Shown one piece after another: positions 2 through 13,474 of a stretch of DNA of 19,320 bases. The position numbers and the translations under genes are program-made. Position 1 is the stretch's first letter; every line of letters begins with the position of its first letter. Origin of the DNA: a bacterium. Its GTDB lineage: Bacteria > Blakebacterota > Blakebacteria > Blakebacterales > Blakebacteraceae. The DNA lies in assembly GCA_025774205.1 (NCBI GenBank), contig JALGWK010000004.1:1-19320 (forward strand). Reading direction: 5' to 3'. The notes under the pieces are model-generated. The model was not told the origin of the DNA and did not search any database. It was given only the letters and a program-made list of their open reading frames with translations.

Positions 2-3000
2 GGTGATGATTTCGACCGGGCGGTCGCGGCTCTGGAAGGGGAAGAGCCGGAGGAAGAGCCGGAGGAAGAGGAGGCGGTCGAGGAGGAAGAGGAAGGTGTG
101 GAAGAGCAGGCAGAAGAGCGAAAGCAGAAAGTGCCCGATCTCACCTCCCTGGAATTCCCCGATCTTCACCGGATCACCGTCCGGGTGAGAGGCCCGGAGG
201 CAACGCACCGGGTTGATCTCCTGCCGCGCAAACCGTGGCAGACTTCTCCGGCATCGGGTCGGTCAGCCGCCGCCTCACGCGACTTCCCCCTGTCGCGACT
301 GCTGACGACCGAAGGGCTCTTCCGCGATTCCGACCAGGACTTCGTGCCCGACGAGATGATCGCGCATTTTTCGGTGGACGGCGGGGAGGCGGCCGAGGCG
401 CTGGTGGACCTTGCCGCCCGGATCGGACTCGAGACAGCCGGAATGCGGTTCCCTCTGGCCCGGGTGGGCGGCGAGGATGACTACCCGGAAGAATCGGGTT
501 TCCCGGTCATCGTGGGATCGGACCACTACCAGACGAGAAGACTCCTGAAGGAAGAGCGGCTTCACGGACTCCCGGTTGGACCGGGGGAGGGCTATCTCCA
601 GTTCGCGGCCGAGGCCTTCAATGGCAACAGCGGCCTGGTGATCGGCGGTACCGATCAGGAAGGACTCGAGACGATCACCACCTGGATCGCGGAGCGCATG
701 CCGTGGCTCTGGACCCGGGGCAAGGGTGAGTTCTCGCTCGAGGATGTCGAGACCGAGGTGCGCCGGTTCTTGAAAGCGGGCGGGCAGGTGAGTCTGGCGC
801 TCGGCAAGCTCGACCGGTGGCTCGAACGGATCGAAGGACGCGACCTCGAGAAGATCGAGGTCGAGATCGCCGCCAGGGAGGTCGAGCCTGGACTCGACTC
901 CCATATCCGGGATCGGGTCAGGAACCGGTTCCCCGGGACGGAGACGAGCACGCAGGTGTTCAGGACAGGGTTCGGCACGAACCGGCCGATCTTCGAGGAA
1001 TCGCTGGAGATCCCGTGGGAGGTGGACACCTTCCGTGATCTCTTCCGGGGGAAGGCCCTGCCCGCGCTGGCTTCGTCGAACGGTGGCCGCATCGTGGTAC
1101 GGGTGAGTGAATCCCCGGCGGTGCGGGCCGATCTGAAAGAGGAGATCGAAGCCGATCTGCGCCGGGCAGGGATCGATCCCTCGTCATTCACCATCGAGGT
1201 GATCTGCGCCTACAAGCAGGGGTACAGCTGGCTCCACGACGTGATCCTGCCGCGGCTCCTCGATCGGGAGATCGGCGGCATCGAGATAACCTACCATACC
1301 CTGAAGGATTCCCGGGAGGTGCGCTGGCAGGCGATCCATGCCAACACCAGGTGGCTGCAGGAGATCTTCCCCATCGACGTGGTCATGGGACGGGAACTTG
1401 GGATCCCCGATTCACTGATCACGTTCACGCCCACCCAGGAGATCGATCCGATCTACACCGTCACCGCGACCGATCGCGCGGGCAATGTCGTACTCCGGGA
1501 GGATTTCGATCCGAAGTACGTGGTGCGGCCCTTCTTCGACCTCTTCCCCGAGTATGAATCACTCCGGGTGACCACCGGATGGGTGCTGGTGGAGTCCGAC
1601 GGACAGATCGTGCTGGATGAGCGCATTCCCACCGATCCGGAGGTATTCTGGGATCATCTGCAGACCTCCACTTTCCGGAAGATCATCGACTACGTGATGG
1701 ACCTGCAGGAGGGGCGCCCTTCACCGAACAACGCGCCCTATTTCGATGAACTGCGCATCGACCTCACCCTGAGCGAACCCGACTATCGACTCGATGTGGA
1801 TGAAGAGGTGATCTCCTCCCTGGAGGCCCTTCACGAGGACATTCTCTTCGAGACCCTGACGCTCTTCAACCTGATCGGTAACCGGTACGGAGTAGGAACT
1901 CTGAGCTATCCCGGACGGGTTCTGCCGTGGGTGCATCCCGCCCGGGACGGGGAAGCAGGGCACGCTTCGATCACCATGACCGGGCGGGAGCGGGCGGCCC
2001 CCGAACTCGTCATGACGTGGACCGAACGGGGATCGGAACCGGTCAAACAGCGGTATCCGCTCACGAACCTCGGGGTGGAACCGCCGGTTCTGCGTGGTAT
2101 CACGGTGAAATCAGGAGATGAGGGACTGTCGCGGATGCTCTTCGAGGTTGTCGCGACCGATACGGTCGACCGGTACGATGAGTATCGCTACCGCGGATCG
2201 GAGTCGGCGATCGATCGGAGCTTCCTCTCTTCGGAACTGCTGGCCGACATGGTTCTGAACCTGGCCGGTCTCCATGCCGCCGGTCTCTACGAAGAGGAGA
2301 TGAGTCTCGACCGGGTGGGGGAGTTCCTCTTCCGGATCACCCTGGAGGATTCGACCGAGTTCACCCGGCTCATTCCCCTGCCGCGGAGCCGGAATCCGAT
2401 GAGCACCGACAACCCGCGGCTCGAGGATCGGCGCTTCCGTTATCGTGGAGAACCGCTGGTGCAGTGGGAGACACCGATCCCGCCGGGGGAGTGCAACGAG
2501 ATCCTTGCCCGCCTCGGCACCTTCCCCAACGTGAACGTCTACTATATGGCCACCTCGCTGCTGGGGCAGGATGTCTTCGCGGTCGATCTCCATCCGCCGG
2601 TCGAGGCCGCCTACCTCTCCCAGGCGAAGCTGAACGCTCTCCGTCCGACGCTGCTGCTGCACGGCCGGGTTCACGGCAACGAGGTCTCCAGCACGAGCCA
2701 CCTGCTGAGGCTCATCGAACTGTGCGCGACCGATTCGACCTGGATGGAGTACCTGAACCAGGTGAACCTGGTGATCTATCCCATCACCAATCCCGACGGC
2801 GCGCAGATCGCGTATGACATGTGGCGGGAGACCCCCGATTTCATGCTCCACGTGGGACGCCCCGGAGCGCTCGGCAACGACGTGACCTCCCGGGAGGTCA
2901 GGGGCGATCACCGCTACCCTGAAGCGGGGATGGTCCACCGGCTGCGGGAGGCCTGGCTCCCCGATATCGTCATCGACATGCACGGGGTTCCCTCGCACGA

Positions 3001-3577
3001 ATGGGTGCAGTATTTCGCCGGGTACAGCGGCTGGGTGCGGAGCCGGTACGGCGGAGCCCGCAGTTACTGGCTGCCACGGGGGTGGTACATCCCCGGCTTC
3101 AGCTGGATCGACGATGACCGCTATCCGGAGATCGAAACCGCCCACCGGGCGATCACCGATTCGCTCCTCATAGCCGTCACCTCGGTCGCCGATGTCGATG
3201 CCGCCAACCGGCGTATCTACGACCGGTATCTCAAGTATGGTCGCCAGGACGAGGAAACCCACCGGGAGTACTTCTACCGGGGGATCCAGCTCGAGGCCGG
3301 GTTGCGGGGCAGGAGGATATCGGGTTCCGGGGTCACCGGCCCGAAGGTTACCTACTTCACCATGACGACCGAAGCGGCCGATGAGACCGCTTACGGTGAC
3401 TGGCTCGATCTCATGTGTCGGGCAGGCCTCTCGAGCAGTCAGGCCCTGCTGAATTATCTCTACCACGGGGTGAACGATGTCGAGCGGGAGAACCGGGCGA
3501 ACGGGGAGTACATCACCCGCAGCGTGAGCAGGGTGAAACCCGTAACGCCGGATTCGGGAGATGAAAAGAAACGTTAG
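2..3577 (+). CDS. M14-family zinc carboxypeptidase-like protein, N-terminus outside window
   Basis: The reading frame is open from the first codon at base 2, so the true start lies upstream; 1191 residues are visible. Numbered from base 2, residues 12-42 are a Glu-rich low-complexity linker. A long region of unrecognised folds follows to about residue 800. The last third is an M14 metallocarboxypeptidase domain: the zinc motif HGRVHGNE holds H891 and E894 (HxxE), NPDG follows, and DMHG supplies the third ligand H994. E1098 in GIQLEAG is a candidate catalytic Glu. M14 enzymes cleave C-terminal amino acids or peptidoglycan peptides; which applies here cannot be told. The protein is far longer than typical M14 enzymes (300-450 residues), so most of it is accessory. 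Export is likely but the signal region is not visible. The GTG at 98 is only an internal codon. The gene is followed by two small genes on the same strand. Confidence 0.85.
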   Translation, partial: GDDFDRAVAALEGEEPEEEPEEEEAVEEEEEGVEEQAEERKQKVPDLTSLEFPDLHRITVRVRGPEATHRVDLLPRKPWQTSPASGRSAAASRDFPLSRLLTTEGLFRDSDQDFVPDEMIAHFSVDGGEAAEALVDLAARIGLETAGMRFPLARVGGEDDYPEESGFPVIVGSDHYQTRRLLKEERLHGLPVGPGEGYLQFAAEAFNGNSGLVIGGTDQEGLETITTWIAERMPWLWTRGKGEFSLEDVETEVRRFLKAGGQVSLALGKLDRWLERIEGRDLEKIEVEIAAREVEPGLDSHIRDRVRNRFPGTETSTQVFRTGFGTNRPIFEESLEIPWEVDTFRDLFRGKALPALASSNGGRIVVRVSESPAVRADLKEEIEADLRRAGIDPSSFTIEVICAYKQGYSWLHDVILPRLLDREIGGIEITYHTLKDSREVRWQAIHANTRWLQEIFPIDVVMGRELGIPDSLITFTPTQEIDPIYTVTATDRAGNVVLREDFDPKYVVRPFFDLFPEYESLRVTTGWVLVESDGQIVLDERIPTDPEVFWDHLQTSTFRKIIDYVMDLQEGRPSPNNAPYFDELRIDLTLSEPDYRLDVDEEVISSLEALHEDILFETLTLFNLIGNRYGVGTLSYPGRVLPWVHPARDGEAGHASITMTGRERAAPELVMTWTERGSEPVKQRYPLTNLGVEPPVLRGITVKSGDEGLSRMLFEVVATDTVDRYDEYRYRGSESAIDRSFLSSELLADMVLNLAGLHAAGLYEEEMSLDRVGEFLFRITLEDSTEFTRLIPLPRSRNPMSTDNPRLEDRRFRYRGEPLVQWETPIPPGECNEILARLGTFPNVNVYYMATSLLGQDVFAVDLHPPVEAAYLSQAKLNALRPTLLLHGRVHGNEVSSTSHLLRLIELCATDSTWMEYLNQVNLVIYPITNPDGAQIAYDMWRETPDFMLHVGRPGALGNDVTSREVRGDHRYPEAGMVHRLREAWLPDIVIDMHGVPSHEWVQYFAGYSGWVRSRYGGARSYWLPRGWYIPGFSWIDDDRYPEIETAHRAITDSLLIAVTSVADVDAANRRIYDRYLKYGRQDEETHREYFYRGIQLEAGLRGRRISGSGVTGPKVTYFTMTTEAADETAYGDWLDLMCRAGLSSSQALLNYLYHGVNDVERENRANGEYITRSVSRVKPVTPDSGDEKKR
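41..70 (+). repeat. 12-bp tandem repeat coding for an EEPE acidic tract
   Basis: The unit GAAGAGCCGGAG occurs at 41-52 and 53-64, and half a unit follows at 65-70. It is in frame with the peptidase gene and gives EEPE repeats within a longer acidic stretch. This is probably a flexible linker that can change length by slippage. Confidence 0.7.
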
Positions 3578-6597: not shown

Positions 6598-6621
6598 ATT
6601 TGCACTATCTATTGTGCAAAT
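6598..6621. promoter_or_regulatory. Inverted repeat 1, possible enhancer-binding-protein site or ettA hairpin
   Basis: ATTTGCAC and GTGCAAAT form perfect 8-base arms around the spacer TATCTATT. The same core, GCAC-TATnnATT-GTGC, recurs at 6705-6720. The arms resemble NtrC-type sites (TGCAC...GTGCA), but the spacer is 8 rather than the usual 7. It lies about 215 bases upstream of the start site predicted from the sigma-54-like promoter. Being directly after the ettA stop, the hairpin could instead or also act as a terminator, with CTTTTTG shortly after. Confidence 0.5.
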
Positions 6622-6704: not shown

Positions 6705-6720
6705 GCACTATGGATTGTGC
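6705..6720. promoter_or_regulatory. Inverted repeat 2, second copy of the same operator-like core
   Basis: GCAC-TATGGATT-GTGC repeats the core of the site 103 bases upstream with the same 8-base spacer, again followed by an A-run (AAAA). Only the GCAC/GTGC arms are perfect here. It lies about 110 bases before the predicted sigma-54 start, a normal distance for an enhancer. Confidence 0.5.
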
Positions 6721-6797
6721 AAAAACTGTCCGCTCATTCACGTACCTGATCCTTCAAAACCCAATAAGATACTGATTCTTCGCGCCATTTCCATGTT

Positions 6798-6813: not shown

Positions 6814-6842
6814 CTATATATGCGAGCCTGCGTCCTGTACCG

Positions 6843-6959
6843 GTGCAGCGGGACCGGGAAAGTACGGGCGTACCCTCCCGCGGGGAAGGAGGGTTCACCC
6901 TGAACGAGGTCGTGATGACCATGTCTTCTCCGAGATTACTCGGGCGAATTACCCCGTGA
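6843..6959 (+). pseudogene. Truncated type IV prepilin leader
   Basis: In the frame starting at GTG 6843 the translation reaches RGEGGFTLNEVVMTM and then stops at TGA 6957-6959 after SSPRLLGRITP. GG|FTLxE with Glu at position 5 is the prepilin peptidase signature, and the next gene carries the closely similar EGGFTLVELMV. The hydrophobic helix is not continued in any frame, so most of the mature pilin seems to have been deleted. No good ribosome site precedes the GTG, and the true start is unknown. It may be the relic of a pilin gene that once headed this transcript, or an assembly error. A functional mini-leader is less likely. Confidence 0.45.
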
Positions 6960-7045
6960 GGCCCAGGGACAGGTGGAACGGGGCGACCAGACTTGCGCCG
7001 GATACATGCGGCACGGTTGCCCGTACCAAGCGTTAGGAGCGCGCA

Positions 7046-10000
7046 ATGCCGTGTCCGACAGCCCTGCATACCGCCCGAGGACCGGAGCCCCGGTCTGACA
7101 CCTCACGCGCCACCGTGAACGGAAGGTCGTCAGCTGAGGGGGGATTTACGCTCGTTGAGTTGATGGTCTCCCTGGTGCTGACGTCTGTGATGTTCTCGGC
7201 GATGCTGGTCGCCTTCCAGGCCCAGAACACGATAAACACGGTCGAACTCGACGTGATCGAGACGCAGCAGAACGCCCGGATGGCGATGACCTCCCTCGGG
7301 ACCGACATCCGGCAGGCAGGCTACTACGTCGATCACTTCAACCGGCAGCCGGTCTGGATCGACGCGGCCCCCAACCAGCTGACCTTCAACGCCAATCTCT
7401 CCGACCGTTTCGTGGCGATGAACCGCGATTCGGCGGTCCCGTTGAGCGATGGTACGATGTACAAGCCGGGCGATTTCACTTCCCTGCCCCAAAATGAGAA
7501 CCTGCCGGTCTTCCTCGACCGATACCTGAACGAATCGGAGACGATCCGGCTGACCCTCGATCGGACCCACGATGGGCTGGTAACGGTCGACGACCGCCAG
7601 CCCGGGGCCGCCAATCCGAACCTCTATACCCTCACCAAGGAGGTCAACGGGAACCCCCCGGCGATCCTGGCCTACAACGTGAGGGGTCCGGCGGCTTACC
7701 CCGACGGCACCCTGCCGCCGCCCATCTTCCAGTACTGGGGGGTATTCACCTTACCCGACGTTCTGGAACTGTGGGGGGACAGCAACAGCGACGGGGCCCT
7801 GTCCCAGGCGGAGATCAACGCGTTGACACCGGTCTCCCGGGCCAACCTGCCGAATGTCCAGCGAGTGGATATCACGGTCATCGTTGAGACCGGCCGCCTT
7901 GCCCACGGCTACGAGGGACCGTTCGGCACCAGCGGCGACCCCTACCAGTACCGGTCGTATACGCTGAGGCGTCAGATCAGGGCCCGGAACGTGGGGATCA
8001 ATCCGAGTGGCTGGCTGCTCTGCGGGGTACCTCCCGATCCCCCCCTGAATCCCTTCGGGTACGACACCCCCGCGGACAATGGCGGCAGCATCACCATCGA
8101 ATGGGACTCCTCACTTGACGAGTTCATCGATGAAGAGGATGTCCAGTACTACTCTGTCTACCGGAAGCTCGGGTCGGCCGGAGAGGAAGAGGTGGTGGGG
8201 CAGATACAGGCGATCATCGCCGACACCAACTACGTCTTCATCGATGACGGCGACGTCGACAACTTCAACTCACCGGTGGATGGTCTGGAATATTACTATC
8301 GCATGGCCGCCTGGGACTGCGCTCCCCAGGAGTCCGTGCCAACTGCCTGGATCGGTCCCATCGTCAGCATACCGAACGGGCCTCAACCGCCCGTCATCGA
8401 TGACGCCTGGGATACCCCCTGTGACACCGGACTGGATATTACCGTCCGCTTCCTTGCCAGCCCGCAGGACAATGGTCTGGCCGGCGGAGTCGAGAGGTAC
8501 CAGGTCTACCGCGGCACCGTCTCGGATGGCACCATCTTCTCCAAGGTCCTGGTCGACACCCTGGTCGATGCTGTCGGTCAGACGGCCTATGAATTCCATG
8601 ACACGGTCGGCAATGATGCCGGTTTACCACCGGTCGACAATACGGACTACTACTACATCATCCGGGCCGTAAGGGCCGGGATTGAAAGCGAAAACAGCAA
8701 CGAGGCCGGAGCCGTCTGGAGTTCGGAAGGTCTCTCGGCCGCCAGGCTCATCTCGGTCGTGGACAAGCCGGGCGATGACGGTCGGGCCCTGCTGCTGGCA
8801 TGGCGCCGATCACCTTCGGAAGACTGCACTCCCGGGCCGGAGCACTACTGGCTCATGCGACGGGTCAAGGGAACCTCGACCTGGAACAAGGTCGGGGAAT
8901 TTCTGGCTGCGGGACAGCAGACCTACAACCACGAGGACAATAACCTCGGCGCGGGGCTCATTCCCGGCACCACCTATGAATATCTCGTTCTGACGAAGCT
9001 GGGTACGGAGTTCGAGGAATCCAACGTCGAGGAGGGGACCCCCGCGGCGAACCCGCTCATCGGGCCGCCGGCGGGACTGTCGGCCGAAGATGAGGCATGT
9101 GATCCGAACGGCAATATCATCCTCGAGTGGAGCGCTTCTCCCGATGACGGGGACGGCTCATTCCTGGTAGATCAGTACCTCATCTACCGGTGGCGGGGGG
9201 GCTTCGCGCCCGGCCTGATCGCGATAGTCACCGCCGATGGTTCGGAACTCTACAACTGGACCGATTCGGCGGCCACCAACCCCGGGAACGCACCGATCCT
9301 GGGTGTCACCTACTGGTACCACGTGACCGCCTACAACAGCTCCACTTCAGCCGAGAGCGATCCATCGAACGACTCCGAGGCCACCGCCGACGGTTCCCCG
9401 GGGGCAGCGGAGATCACTGCCGCCTTCGATACCTTCCAGCCGACGCAGAGAGAGATCCGGGTGGAATGGCTGGCCTCCGAGGATGATGGCGGATGTTCCG
9501 ATTCGGTGTACGACTACCGCATCTTCCGGACGACGGTGCAGGGGAATTACACCGCCCCCGCGATCGGCCACCTCCACGCCGACGACTCCGAACTCTATTT
9601 CTGGCTGGACAATCTCTCCAACTCCACCAACCCTCCCGCGGATGGCCAGACGTACTGGTACATCATCCGCGCCTACGACATCGTGAACGATCTCCTCTCG
9701 ATGGCCAGCAACGAGTTCGGACCGGTCGAACCGTTCGGGGATGCCTGCGAATGCTGTCCGATCTTCCAGGATGATTTCGAGAGTGGGAATCTCGGCTGGA
9801 CTTCCGGCGGCAACCGGGACGACTGGCAGCTCGGGCGACCGCGCGGCAAGTCGTTCGATCCCAGCGTGGCGCATTCAGGTGCCAATGTCTGGGGGAACGA
9901 CATCGGGGAGGGATCGTTCGACGGCATGTACCGCTCCCGGGCCGACAACTGGATTATCAGTCCAACGATGGACCTCTCCGGGTACAACAATGGCACGGTG

Positions 10001-10654
10001 ATGCTCTCCTACTGGCGCTGGCTCTCGGTACAGCAGGGTACCCACGACGACGCGGAGTTGAGGATCGATAACGGTTCCGGTTGGCAGACGATGTGGCAGA
10101 ATCAGAGCGATGTCAACACGGTGGATGGAGAATGGAAGGAGCAGCTGCTCGATCTCACCCCCTACCTGGTGCTCGGCAGTCCGAACGTCAGGATCGCCTG
10201 GGCGCTCGACACCAACAACTCGCAGCAGTTCGGCGGGTGGAACATCGACGACGTGGAGGTCTGTTACACATCAGCAGGTCCATGTGACATCTTCCTCTAT
10301 ATTGGTGACTCGGTTGCCCTGAACCAGGGGAATAACCTCTTCTTCGATATCTTCAACACGAGTGACGTACCGGTCGACATGCTCGGGATGATCATTGACT
10401 GGTCGGTCGAAGGCAGTCTGCTGAAGTCTATCGCCACTCAGGGAAGCGGTCCCGGAGAAGTGTGGACAACAGCAGTCTCCCAGGCGCCCACGGTTGAGGC
10501 AACGTTCTCCACGCCGGTGACGTTCGACGCGGATGGATCAGTTCGATTCAAGCTGAGATATCAACCGGGACAGCTGAGGGGCTCCGCCCTTCGACTGCGG
10601 TTCATCACTGAATGTGGCGTATCGAACGAGATCGTCATCCAGCTGCCGGGTTAG
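7046..10654 (+). CDS. Giant PilW-like prepilin with FN3 modules and a beta-sandwich head
   Basis: This is a 1202-residue protein. A 33-residue basic leader ends at GG|FTLVELMV, with Glu38 at mature position 5, and is followed by a hydrophobic helix to about 58. DIRQAGYYVD at about 90-100 is typical of PilW minor pilins. Residues D245-E256 (DSNSDGALSQAE) fit an EF-hand calcium loop. From about 325 to 893 there are five FN3-like modules of about 110 residues, each with a Y-x-(I/V)-(Y/F)-R strand and a late YYY/YWY strand. A beta-sandwich follows at about 905-1073 (FQDDFESGNLGWTS...NWIISPTMDLSG...GGWNIDDVEVC), then a C-terminal beta domain. PilW proteins are normally about 250-350 residues, so this is an adhesin-like fusion, presumably processed by a prepilin peptidase and displayed at a pilus tip or on the cell surface. 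No other pilus gene is nearby. AGGAG precedes the ATG by 6 bases. Confidence 0.85.
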   Translation: MPCPTALHTARGPEPRSDTSRATVNGRSSAEGGFTLVELMVSLVLTSVMFSAMLVAFQAQNTINTVELDVIETQQNARMAMTSLGTDIRQAGYYVDHFNRQPVWIDAAPNQLTFNANLSDRFVAMNRDSAVPLSDGTMYKPGDFTSLPQNENLPVFLDRYLNESETIRLTLDRTHDGLVTVDDRQPGAANPNLYTLTKEVNGNPPAILAYNVRGPAAYPDGTLPPPIFQYWGVFTLPDVLELWGDSNSDGALSQAEINALTPVSRANLPNVQRVDITVIVETGRLAHGYEGPFGTSGDPYQYRSYTLRRQIRARNVGINPSGWLLCGVPPDPPLNPFGYDTPADNGGSITIEWDSSLDEFIDEEDVQYYSVYRKLGSAGEEEVVGQIQAIIADTNYVFIDDGDVDNFNSPVDGLEYYYRMAAWDCAPQESVPTAWIGPIVSIPNGPQPPVIDDAWDTPCDTGLDITVRFLASPQDNGLAGGVERYQVYRGTVSDGTIFSKVLVDTLVDAVGQTAYEFHDTVGNDAGLPPVDNTDYYYIIRAVRAGIESENSNEAGAVWSSEGLSAARLISVVDKPGDDGRALLLAWRRSPSEDCTPGPEHYWLMRRVKGTSTWNKVGEFLAAGQQTYNHEDNNLGAGLIPGTTYEYLVLTKLGTEFEESNVEEGTPAANPLIGPPAGLSAEDEACDPNGNIILEWSASPDDGDGSFLVDQYLIYRWRGGFAPGLIAIVTADGSELYNWTDSAATNPGNAPILGVTYWYHVTAYNSSTSAESDPSNDSEATADGSPGAAEITAAFDTFQPTQREIRVEWLASEDDGGCSDSVYDYRIFRTTVQGNYTAPAIGHLHADDSELYFWLDNLSNSTNPPADGQTYWYIIRAYDIVNDLLSMASNEFGPVEPFGDACECCPIFQDDFESGNLGWTSGGNRDDWQLGRPRGKSFDPSVAHSGANVWGNDIGEGSFDGMYRSRADNWIISPTMDLSGYNNGTVMLSYWRWLSVQQGTHDDAELRIDNGSGWQTMWQNQSDVNTVDGEWKEQLLDLTPYLVLGSPNVRIAWALDTNNSQQFGGWNIDDVEVCYTSAGPCDIFLYIGDSVALNQGNNLFFDIFNTSDVPVDMLGMIIDWSVEGSLLKSIATQGSGPGEVWTTAVSQAPTVEATFSTPVTFDADGSVRFKLRYQPGQLRGSALRLRFITECGVSNEIVIQLPG
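7778..7813 (+). other. EF-hand-type calcium loop inside the prepilin
   Basis: Residues 245-256, DSNSDGALSQAE, have D1, N3, D5, G6, L8 and E12, the exact pattern of a canonical 12-residue EF-hand or dockerin-type loop. It sits at the end of the pilin head, before the FN3 modules. Confidence 0.65.
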
Positions 10655-11816
10655 CGGGAGGAGGAGGGGGGGGGCGCACTCGCCTCGACTGAAGATCACG
10701 AAGTGAGGCCAGCACGCGGTCTACGCGCTCCAGGTGCGAGCGCACCGTATCGTTATCCTCGAGTTCGAGGGTGGTCTCCCAGATCTGCTTTGCCTGTTCG
10801 TAGTGACCGTTCGTATAGAGATCGTTCCCCTGCCCCAGATATATCTCCACCTGGCGGACAATTCGCTGGTTGAGTTGTCCCCGAACATCCGATACCTCGG
10901 GGGAGTCGGGGGCCATGATCTCTGCTTCATCCACGAGCCGGCGCGCTTCCAGCAGCAGCTGCTGGTCGAGAGCGTCTCTGGCCTCGTTCAGACGCTGATC
11001 CACTTCTCTCTGCCGTCGCTCACGTTCCGCGCGAATCCGGGCCGCTTCGTCCCTTCTGCGATCGTCCTCCTGGATATTCGCCACCTGTGTCTCAGCTGCT
11101 GCAAGGAGGCGGATCTCTTCTCGTTCGGCCATGGCGCGGCGTTCATGCTCCCGACTGATCTGATCCATCGCAGCTTCTACCCGGGGGGTACGTTCTATCC
11201 GGGCGGCGATGATGATATAGCCCTCGGCAGTGAAGTAATCACCATCCAGCAGCGCTTCTTCCCCTGCTGTGGAGAGGCGCTCAACGATACTGGTGAGTTC
11301 TGCCTGAATTGCGGCGACCTGCCTGCGCCCTGCGAGGTGATAGGGGTCGACCCGGGCAATTTCCTGCCGGAGGGGGAGCTCCTGAAGGAGCCGCTCCGCC
11401 CGCAGCAGTATCAGCCTGTCGTCCACGTCGTTCAACAGCATTGTCTGCCGTTGCCGCATATTCTGCTCGGCGGTATCGATCTCCTCACTGGTCGGGTACT
11501 TCTGGCGGGCCTCAACCAGCATGGCTATGGCGCTGGTCCAGTCACCCTCTGCTTCTATCGCTTCGGAACGCGCGATCATGGACCGGGCGTATTCGTCAGC
11601 GAGGTCCTGCACCTCGGCCTCCAGCGCTCGAAAGCTCTCGCGTTCCGGGTGGGTTGGAGGAATATCGCGCAGTTCCCGCAGCGCTTCACCGAAATCCTGA
11701 CGCGCGACGAGGGCGTTGATCTCGTTTATGGTGGGTGGACGGAGGAAACTGGGAATGGTGCAACCGCACAGGAGAGCCAGAGCCACCATCACACTATTTC
11801 GCAGAGACGTTCTCAT
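10635..11816 (-). CDS. TPR-type lipoprotein with coiled coil and proline-rich tail
   Basis: The 393-residue product has an N-terminal signal peptide with a lipobox (LCGC, lipidated Cys19), so it should be membrane-anchored outside the cytoplasm. Residues 30-110 are helical TPR-like repeats (FGEALRELRDI..., DWTSAIAMLVEARQKYP). Residues about 210-290 are a charged coiled coil rich in Arg and Glu, and a C-terminal TPR (NGHYEQAKQIWETTLELED) precedes PPPPPPANPAAG. This suggests a scaffold for protein contacts; the partner is unknown. Its ATG overlaps the cyclase stop in an ATGA (11813-11816) and no ribosome site is visible, so translation is probably coupled to the cyclase. Its last 20 bases overlap the end of the convergent prepilin gene. 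Confidence 0.82.
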   Translation of the reverse strand: MRTSLRNSVMVALALLCGCTIPSFLRPPTINEINALVARQDFGEALRELRDIPPTHPERESFRALEAEVQDLADEYARSMIARSEAIEAEGDWTSAIAMLVEARQKYPTSEEIDTAEQNMRQRQTMLLNDVDDRLILLRAERLLQELPLRQEIARVDPYHLAGRRQVAAIQAELTSIVERLSTAGEEALLDGDYFTAEGYIIIAARIERTPRVEAAMDQISREHERRAMAEREEIRLLAAAETQVANIQEDDRRRDEAARIRAERERRQREVDQRLNEARDALDQQLLLEARRLVDEAEIMAPDSPEVSDVRGQLNQRIVRQVEIYLGQGNDLYTNGHYEQAKQIWETTLELEDNDTVRSHLERVDRVLASLRDLQSRRVRPPPPPPANPAAG

Positions 11817-13474
11817 GAATTGGAGGCTACTACCTGTTTCAATATCGATACAATCTCTTTATCCCCGATCGTCCGGTATGCTGGTCTGATGCTTTTGACG
11901 ATATAGCTGTTAACCGGCTCACTCTTGCCGCGCAGATGAATCAAATCATGCTTCTTGACCATAATACGCTCCGCCAGATCCGGATGCTTCTTTGTTTCCT
12001 CGGTTATCACGATCTGCCCCGGTCCGGCCGCTGAGTGGAGCCGGGAGGCCAGGTTGACGGAGTCACCGACGACCGTGTACTGCATGCGCTCAGAGGATCC
12101 CATATTACCTGCCAGCATCCATCCCGTGTTGATCCCGATCCGGAACTGAACCGTGACGCGTCCTTCTTCCGAACGCTGTTCGTTGAGTTTCTTGGCGAGC
12201 TTCTGGATAGTGATGGCGCAGTCGATGGCGTGGAAACAGTGATCGGGGTCTTCCTCCGGTGCGCCGAACAACAGCATGGCGCAATCGCCGATGTATTTAT
12301 CGACGATACCGTGGTGGAGAGCGGCAATGTGGGCGATGTGGGTAAAATAGCTGTTGAGAAGGTCGGCGACTTCATTCGGTTCCAACTGTTCCGAGAGCCG
12401 GGTAAATCCCACGATGTCGGCAAAGAGCACACTGGCCTGCACGTGTTTGCCGCCGATTCTGACCTCCGCGAGATTGGAGAGGATCTCCTGCGCCACAGTA
12501 GGGGACACGTACCGGGAGAAAATCTTCTCGACCTCTGTTTTCTGCAGGATGCCGTCGGCCATGGTATTAATGGAACTCATCAGTTGCCCGAACTCATCTC
12601 TGCGTTTCTCGGTAAAGCGGTACTGTATGTCTCCCTTGCTCAGGGCCCGGCTGGCATCCATCAGTTGATGGATCGGCCGGGAGAGGCGGCGGCCGATGAA
12701 TATGGAGAGGCCGATTCCGAAGAGGATCATGACGATGGTGGCTGCGACAATAACCCGCACCGAGGATTGGAGAGATTCGTTCAGGTAGGCACGGCTGAAC
12801 GTTACCATAATCCATCCGACCGCAATATCGCCGTATAATGAAGGGCTGACGAACGTCACCACGTCCCGATTTCCCTCCCCGCCTGCAGGATCGTACCATT
12901 CGATATACGGCTGATCCTGCTCCCCTGCTTCACGGTTCGACATCTCGATAGGTTCTGCGGTGTAATGGGGAATTGCCCCGGAACTGGCCAGTGTGTCGCC
13001 ATCCGCCGAGAGAACAGCAGCACCCAGCACGCTCGCATTACTCCTCAGGGTGGTTACCAGCGGTCCGAGTCGCCAACCCTCGTCAGCAAGGATCGGATCT
13101 GTGGCCGATCCGGCCATCTGATCGGCAACCGTCTGGCCGAAGTCGTACGTCTGTGCGCGAAGCAGTCGGGTCTGTCTGTTGAGGATTCCCAGGCCGAGCG
13201 CCGACATGAGGATGAGAATGACGAATCCGATTGAGAAGGAGTATTTGTAGGTAATGGGAATTCGGGTGAGCAGCGGAATGGTCCTGCTTTTCCTTAAAGC
13301 AGGCCACAACAACCTGGCTGCGACCTTGATCAGCTCGCCGGCCCGGATCAGGAGTGAGCGAAAGAATGTGTTCCTGTCTGTGTCTGTCATGCCTGGTCCG
13401 TTGGAGTGAGGAACCTGACCGTTCACCTTCGTGAGCTGAGTGTTCTGACCGTATTGTACTCTTCCCGCCACCAT
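11813..13474 (-). CDS. Membrane-bound class III adenylate cyclase with extracytoplasmic sensor and HAMP domain
   Basis: The 553-residue protein makes cAMP from ATP. In order it has a basic N-terminus, a membrane helix (78-98), an extracytoplasmic CACHE-like sensor (about 99-238), a second helix (239-261), HAMP (262-310) and a class III cyclase domain (about 345-515). Metal-binding D353 (FADIVGFT) and D397 (KYIGD) are present, as are adenine-selecting K393 and D471 and transition-state N474 and R478 (GDSVNLASR), so it should be an active adenylate cyclase. The start is uncertain. AGGAGG overlaps the stop of the upstream oxidoreductase but lies 16 bases from ATG 13474; an alternative ATG at 13390 has no clear ribosome site. 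The gap to the upstream gene is 20 bases and the downstream lipoprotein gene overlaps by 4, so all are likely one operon. Confidence 0.9.
   Translation of the reverse strand: MVAGRVQYGQNTQLTKVNGQVPHSNGPGMTDTDRNTFFRSLLIRAGELIKVAARLLWPALRKSRTIPLLTRIPITYKYSFSIGFVILILMSALGLGILNRQTRLLRAQTYDFGQTVADQMAGSATDPILADEGWRLGPLVTTLRSNASVLGAAVLSADGDTLASSGAIPHYTAEPIEMSNREAGEQDQPYIEWYDPAGGEGNRDVVTFVSPSLYGDIAVGWIMVTFSRAYLNESLQSSVRVIVAATIVMILFGIGLSIFIGRRLSRPIHQLMDASRALSKGDIQYRFTEKRRDEFGQLMSSINTMADGILQKTEVEKIFSRYVSPTVAQEILSNLAEVRIGGKHVQASVLFADIVGFTRLSEQLEPNEVADLLNSYFTHIAHIAALHHGIVDKYIGDCAMLLFGAPEEDPDHCFHAIDCAITIQKLAKKLNEQRSEEGRVTVQFRIGINTGWMLAGNMGSSERMQYTVVGDSVNLASRLHSAAGPGQIVITEETKKHPDLAERIMVKKHDLIHLRGKSEPVNSYIVKSIRPAYRTIGDKEIVSILKQVVASNS

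Follow-up and report, generated by a model that had tools for sequence, protein, structure and literature searches.

PilY1 is regarded as the usual tip adhesin of the type IVa pili (T4aP) of diderm bacteria. Raynaud et al. (2021; PMC8179133) have defined and surveyed modular type IV pilins, in which a class III leader is present and a non-pilus domain is fused after the pilin, and the domains added in their 15 commonest architectures include FN3 (IPR003961). Since the survey already lists FN3 fusions, the principle is known. PilB of Streptococcus sanguinis, one of these modular pilins, is a direct adhesin that has been modelled at the pilus tip (PMC8179133). Giant PilWs as such were not the subject of any paper found in the literature searched. 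The protein analysed here carries a class III leader and, fused after its pilin, FN3-like modules and a choice-of-anchor-J domain; what is novel is a modular pilin in the PilW slot with both a stalk and a jelly-roll head. With a probability of roughly 0.7, we consider it a giant modular PilW-type minor pilin whose stalk and head serve as a built-in T4aP tip adhesin, taking the role of PilY1 by fusion.

The window, i.e., the whole stretch of 19,320 nucleotides that was analysed, is the complete contig C362 of a 3.09-Mb MAG (G000; 527 contigs, 86% complete) from a phylum with four genomes in the search set. The ORF at 7046..10654 (+) is a single frame of 1202 codons without an internal stop, and a likely ribosome binding site, AGGAG, is present at 7035..7039 (+). 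The sole Pfam match of the 1202-residue protein is N_methyl (PF07963) at residues 30–53, with 23.3 bits against a cut-off of 21.2. A homologue in G002, a genome of another genus of the same family, covers residues 23–1201 with 61% identity. Comparison of the two showed a pN of 0.20–0.36 against a pS of 0.69–0.90 for every module, and GC3 was 0.68–0.86 across all modules. All modules are under purifying selection, and the ORF is one selected coding frame rather than a chance fusion. The intact frame, the full-length homologue, a pN well below pS and the uniformly high GC3 therefore make a frameshift joining two genes very unlikely, and the pilin and FN3 parts belong to one gene, as the earlier note had supposed. 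No homologue was found in a MAG of the same genus (G001), which is only 82% complete, and no relatives were found in viral contigs and plasmids.

The prepilin (class III) leader occupies residues 1–33 (7046..7144, +), and the motif G33|F34-T-L-V-E38 provides the Glu+5. It is followed by a PilW-type pilin module at residues 34–326 (7145..8023, +), delimited by alignment and prediction, with alpha1 at about residues 36–90. Residues 34–319 align with PilW pilins of several bacteria, including PilWs of an ordinary fimT-pilV-pilW-pilX operon, and an alignment of 11 PilWs showed that E5, the QQNAR motif and an Arg-Asn near the end are kept. In nearly all of the ordinary PilWs aligned, no more than about eight residues separate the invariant Arg-Asn from the C-terminus, and the extension has therefore been attached beyond the point where the pilin naturally ends. 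Both the leader and the PilW-like pilin of the earlier note are thus confirmed, the former by an N_methyl score above cut-off and Glu+5, the latter by homology across the pilin, Glu5 and the canonical C-terminus. A tree of the pilin module was set aside on account of weak support and of two rows (L117 and L130) that were a wrong frame or ORF.

Beyond the pilin are five mutually alignable stalk modules of 109–121 residues each, placed by inter-module alignment and profile at residues 328–445 (8027..8380), 446–562 (8381..8731), 563–671 (8732..9058), 672–783 (9059..9394) and 784–904 (9395..9757), all on the plus strand. About five FN3-like modules had been claimed, and the stalk-module profile does match solved FN3 domains in the PDB, with weak but consistent E-values for titin (1.7e-4), the FN3 of chitinase A1 (4.4e-4) and an Fn3-like protein (4.8e-3). 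The stalk modules, searched in pieces, had no Pfam match up to E 10, and none reaches an fn3 model, hence the label FN3-like. The claimed beta-sandwich corresponds to a choice-of-anchor-J (MAM-like jelly-roll) domain at residues 905–1078 (9758..10279, +), where the NCBIfam model NF038128 matches residues 907–1072 with 35.1 bits against a cut-off of 30; the G002 homologue scores 26.1 bits, under that cut-off. With a profile of the jelly-roll, the PDB yielded Immune inhibitor A and reelin; these solved relatives do not show sugar binding. The jelly-roll family has members in many genomes beyond the phylum. Choice-of-anchor-J proteins are often T9SS cargo, a reading that was dropped because of the prepilin leader. 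The C-terminal domain (residues 1079–1202 with the stop; 10280..10654, +) is 62% identical in G002, and its 124 residues gave no convincing match. The AlphaFold models were of too low a quality to reveal folds, with a pLDDT of 34 for residues 784–1202 as a single sequence and of 43 for the pilin module (12 sequences), where the first part of alpha1 alone is fairly confident and the sheet is of low confidence.

The pilus genes that would accompany such a pilin are found in both genomes. In G002, pilX (PilX_N plus DUF4900) lies immediately 3' of the giant pilW, which begins at the very end of contig C223, and another contig (C334) ends with pilA-pilD-fimT-pilV. The two contig ends share only a few bases, so we infer their adjacency from gene order. 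In G000, pilA-pilD are located at the end of C476, which stops inside pilD, the prepilin peptidase gene. Contig C268 opens inside a pilX homologue. Next come a PilM-like ORF (recognised by eye), PilN and PilO; an unassigned ORF occupies the PilP position ahead of a secretin and a 1711-residue protein with 13 Big_1 domains. PilB and PilT are encoded on C402, and a second PilB with PilC on C279. The type IV pilus machinery of G000 therefore includes PilB, PilT, PilC, PilD, PilA, PilN, PilO and secretins. The earlier note had set a search for such machinery as a check and had named its lack, or a frameshift between pilin and FN3 parts, as grounds for refutation; with the machinery present and the gene in one frame, neither applies. 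The same genome also contains a separate operon with a short PilW of 142 aa (C324), T2SS-like genes (GspM-like, secretin and GspE-like; C480) and a GspG-like pilin (C224).

Some other features of these loci were also noted. The 1711-aa protein (L098:6093-11228), with 13 Big_1/invasin-D3 domains, lies directly 3' of pilN-pilO-secretin in G000 and is a candidate surface adhesin of the pilus locus. The PilX partners (L046:317-1735 and L098:1-1224) contain DUF4900 and have over 400 aa, and the PilX-like protein of G037 and G316 reaches about 800 aa, which means that PilX has grown as well. Three MAGs of the phylum (G000 C476 and C268; G001 C194; G002 C334 and C223) have contig breaks within or next to the pilA-to-pilX region, as if the region varied between strains or assembled poorly.

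The earlier note stated that the gene stands alone, with no pilus assembly genes in the window. That the gene naturally stands alone is not supported, given the pilX that follows it in G002 and the apparently adjoining pilA-pilD-fimT-pilV, and the window keeps remnants of fimT and pilV at about 6823–7011. A probable C-terminal remnant of the minor pilin gene fimT lies at 6823..6885 (+), where a tblastn search of the 551-nt region upstream with residues 229–249 of the G002 FimT gave 48% over 21 aa (E 0.02). A pilV remnant at 6870..6923 (+), inside a 38-aa ORF at 6843-6959, has the prepilin leader VPSRGEGGFTLNEVVMTM, with 14 of 18 residues identical to the G002 PilV. Two more pilV scraps in different frames (FSEITRANYP and PREAQGQVERGDQTCAGYMR; 6925..7011, +) align to PilV past residue 60. 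The best score of the pilV scrap alignment was not reached in 2000 shuffles, which kept base composition but not dinucleotides; the remnants were called from tblastn anchors only, the gapped DNA alignment of pilV being left out as over-flexible. The scraps are collinear, in native order and just upstream of pilW, with deletions and frameshifts, so pilW has been separated from that operon, whether through a rearrangement or through an error of assembly. Downstream of pilW, no pilX was found in the window, and a convergent TPR gene overlaps the pilW stop.

A transposition of a fimT'-pilV'-pilW piece and an assembly misjoin are nearly evenly balanced as explanations. An assembly chimera, in which pilW belongs between pilV and pilX and its ABC-F and TPR neighbours are false joins, has about an even chance of being correct. 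The breaks of C476 inside pilD and of C268 inside pilX leave the native place of pilW in G000 unassembled, the downstream join falls in a G-rich stretch just past the pilW stop, several deletions in the pilV scraps stand beside an intact pilW, and the genes that flank a 6.9-kb stretch of the window are close neighbours in G001, all of which favour a false join. However, the junctions read contain no N run, the window shares no 21-mers with the ends of C476 and C268, and a real transposition with decay of pilV fits the data equally well. A chimera would bear on location only, the protein itself being confirmed in G002. Because the gene is detached from its operon, its expression in G000 is putative. 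That this copy is a displaced, dying gene, no longer made or kept out of the pilus by the breakage of its partners, is improbable; the fimT and pilV scraps and the missing pilX speak for it, whereas the intact frame of 1202 codons, the ribosome binding site and the strong constraint in all modules between G000 and G002 speak against it, though constraint would not reveal a very recent loss.

Other features of the window were also recorded. A TPR protein and a HAMP-adenylate/guanylate cyclase form a pair at 10635-13474 (-), which together with pilW corresponds to the 6.9 kb that G001 lacks between the flanking genes. A 19-bp near-palindrome, GCACTATNNATTGTGCAAA, occurs at 6602-6620 and 6705-6723, 103 bp apart, between the ABC-F gene and the pilV remnant; it was checked as an element end and, among the fetched loci, occurs only in this contig (including overlapping copies). 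The two copies may be an operator or an element end. A 1159-aa protein at 98-3577 (+) contains peptidase M14 (zinc carboxypeptidase) at residues 810–912 after a long, unassigned N-terminal part.

Giant PilWs are not confined to this family. A profile of the pilin with the first FN3-like module, run over 386 genomes, and reading of loci revealed PilW-type prepilins of 940–1927 aa spread over at least 12 families and encoded for the most part in minor-pilin operons; examples are those of G037 (1657 aa), G316 (1660 aa), G269 (1057 aa) and G373 (1927 aa). In G037 and G316, both outside the phylum, a pilin with an FN3-like stalk is encoded in fimT-pilV-pilX-pilW operons followed by pilM-to-pilQ-like genes, and the pilin and FN3-like module are common to G037, G182 and G316 over nearly the whole profile. 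The earlier note had asked for a search for the same architecture in related genomes; G002 has it over almost the full length, and G037 and G316 have the plan of a pilin with an FN3-like stalk. Other giant PilWs have SdrD-B, CarboxypepD_reg, FG-GAP or Big_7 in place of the FN3-like modules. Six loci (L140, L141, L142, L143, L144 and L147) encode PilW-type prepilins of about 980–1070 aa with SdrD-B or CarboxypepD_reg and FG-GAP repeats, that is, an integrin-propeller-like FG-GAP part fused to the pilin and adjoining a PilX-like gene. PilY1 was above cut-off in 34 of the 386 genomes; of those with giant or related PilWs, 19 were searched and none had it above cut-off. The contrast between genomes with giant and with short PilWs, for which 15 giants were counted, one (G101) by open frame only, is suggestive and not significant (p = 0.06); against all other genomes p was 0.24, and an association of giant PilWs with PilY1 absence is not claimed. 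We regard it as possible, although rather less probable than the reading of the single protein, that giant PilWs widely replace PilY1 across many uncultured diderm lineages. The T4aP tip adhesin of these lineages would be fused to PilW, with stalk and head modules swapped from one lineage to another (FN3 plus jelly-roll, SdrD-B plus FG-GAP propeller, Big_7 and others) and the operon position of the pilin unchanged.

As a tip adhesin, the protein would function as follows. PilD would cut the prepilin after Gly33, and the hydrophobic alpha1 and the pilin module would enter the FimT-PilV-PilW-PilX priming complex of a type IVa pilus. The five FN3-like modules would form a long flexible stalk carrying the jelly-roll head and the C-terminal domain past the pilus tip, where these may bind a surface, a polysaccharide or another cell. 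By its fusion, PilW would then take over a task that otherwise falls to PilY1, a separate protein at the tip. Tip position, adhesion, ligand and substitution for PilY1 are the parts of this scheme that we infer. Fusion of sfGFP to PilW3 stopped the pilus of M. xanthus from functioning (PMC7541494), so any large load on PilW needs a narrow or flexible shape to get through PilQ. Passage of the giant PilW through PilQ is the main functional doubt, and how an appendage of nearly 900 residues could pass where an sfGFP-PilW fusion blocks is a question that the protein raises.

The earlier note had also considered a secretion pseudopilus. A GspJ-like minor pseudopilin of a T2SS-like system, with FN3 and jelly-roll modules that recognise or cap secreted substrates rather than external surfaces, is unlikely; the T2SS-like parts of G000 and the equivalence of HIJK pseudopilins and PilHIJK minor pilins (PMC10191384) are consistent with it, but the G002 gene lies with T4aP genes, and the pilX homologue of G000 leads into PilN, PilO and a secretin. 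As G000 also has a separate short-PilW operon and T2SS-like genes of its own, a secretion pseudopilus is the less probable location, and the GspJ models stay below cut-off (TIGR01711 had no match in the window protein up to E 1 and gave the G002 homologue 15.4 bits against a cut-off of 64.85). Somewhat less remote, yet still doubtful, is a structural extension that acts as a spacer, a secretin cork or a PilX scaffold and binds no ligand. FN3 arrays often serve as spacers, and the PilX partner is enlarged as well, which would suit such a role. A stalk with a distinct terminal jelly-roll is, however, the usual plan of surface adhesins, and the terminal modules differ among lineages, as expected for ligand binding. 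A built-in tip adhesin remains the preferred reading. If PilW brings a stalk and a head of its own, the grip of pili on surfaces without PilY1 would be explained, and tip adhesins of uncultured lineages could be recognised from sequence.

Compared with known systems, the protein shares with the ordinary PilW of the T4aP FimU/FimT-PilV-PilW-PilX priming complex (PMC7541494) the leader, Glu5, the QQNAR region, the Arg-Asn end and, in G002, the place before pilX; it differs in about 880 extra residues past the natural C-terminus and in a genome, G000, where PilY1 was not found. Like PilC/PilY1, it is proposed as an adhesive T4aP tip cap with exchangeable modules, but it has no PF05567 domain and is itself a pilin. 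CofB and TcpB of type IVb pili are likewise minor pilins of great length, in which beta modules follow the pilin, and are located at the tip (PMC8179133), although their modules and pilus class are different and CofB is an adapter for the secreted CofJ. The protein also resembles PilB of S. sanguinis, in which non-pilus modules are likewise grafted onto an N-terminal pilin motif and for which, as here, a tip adhesin is proposed. PilB has a vWA module, whereas the present protein builds on a PilW-type pilin from a T4aP operon of the diderm type and adds to it five FN3-like modules, a choice-of-anchor-J head and a C-terminal end of unassigned fold, and at 1202 aa it is larger than the multi-domain extreme of 860 aa quoted by Raynaud et al. 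(PMC8179133).
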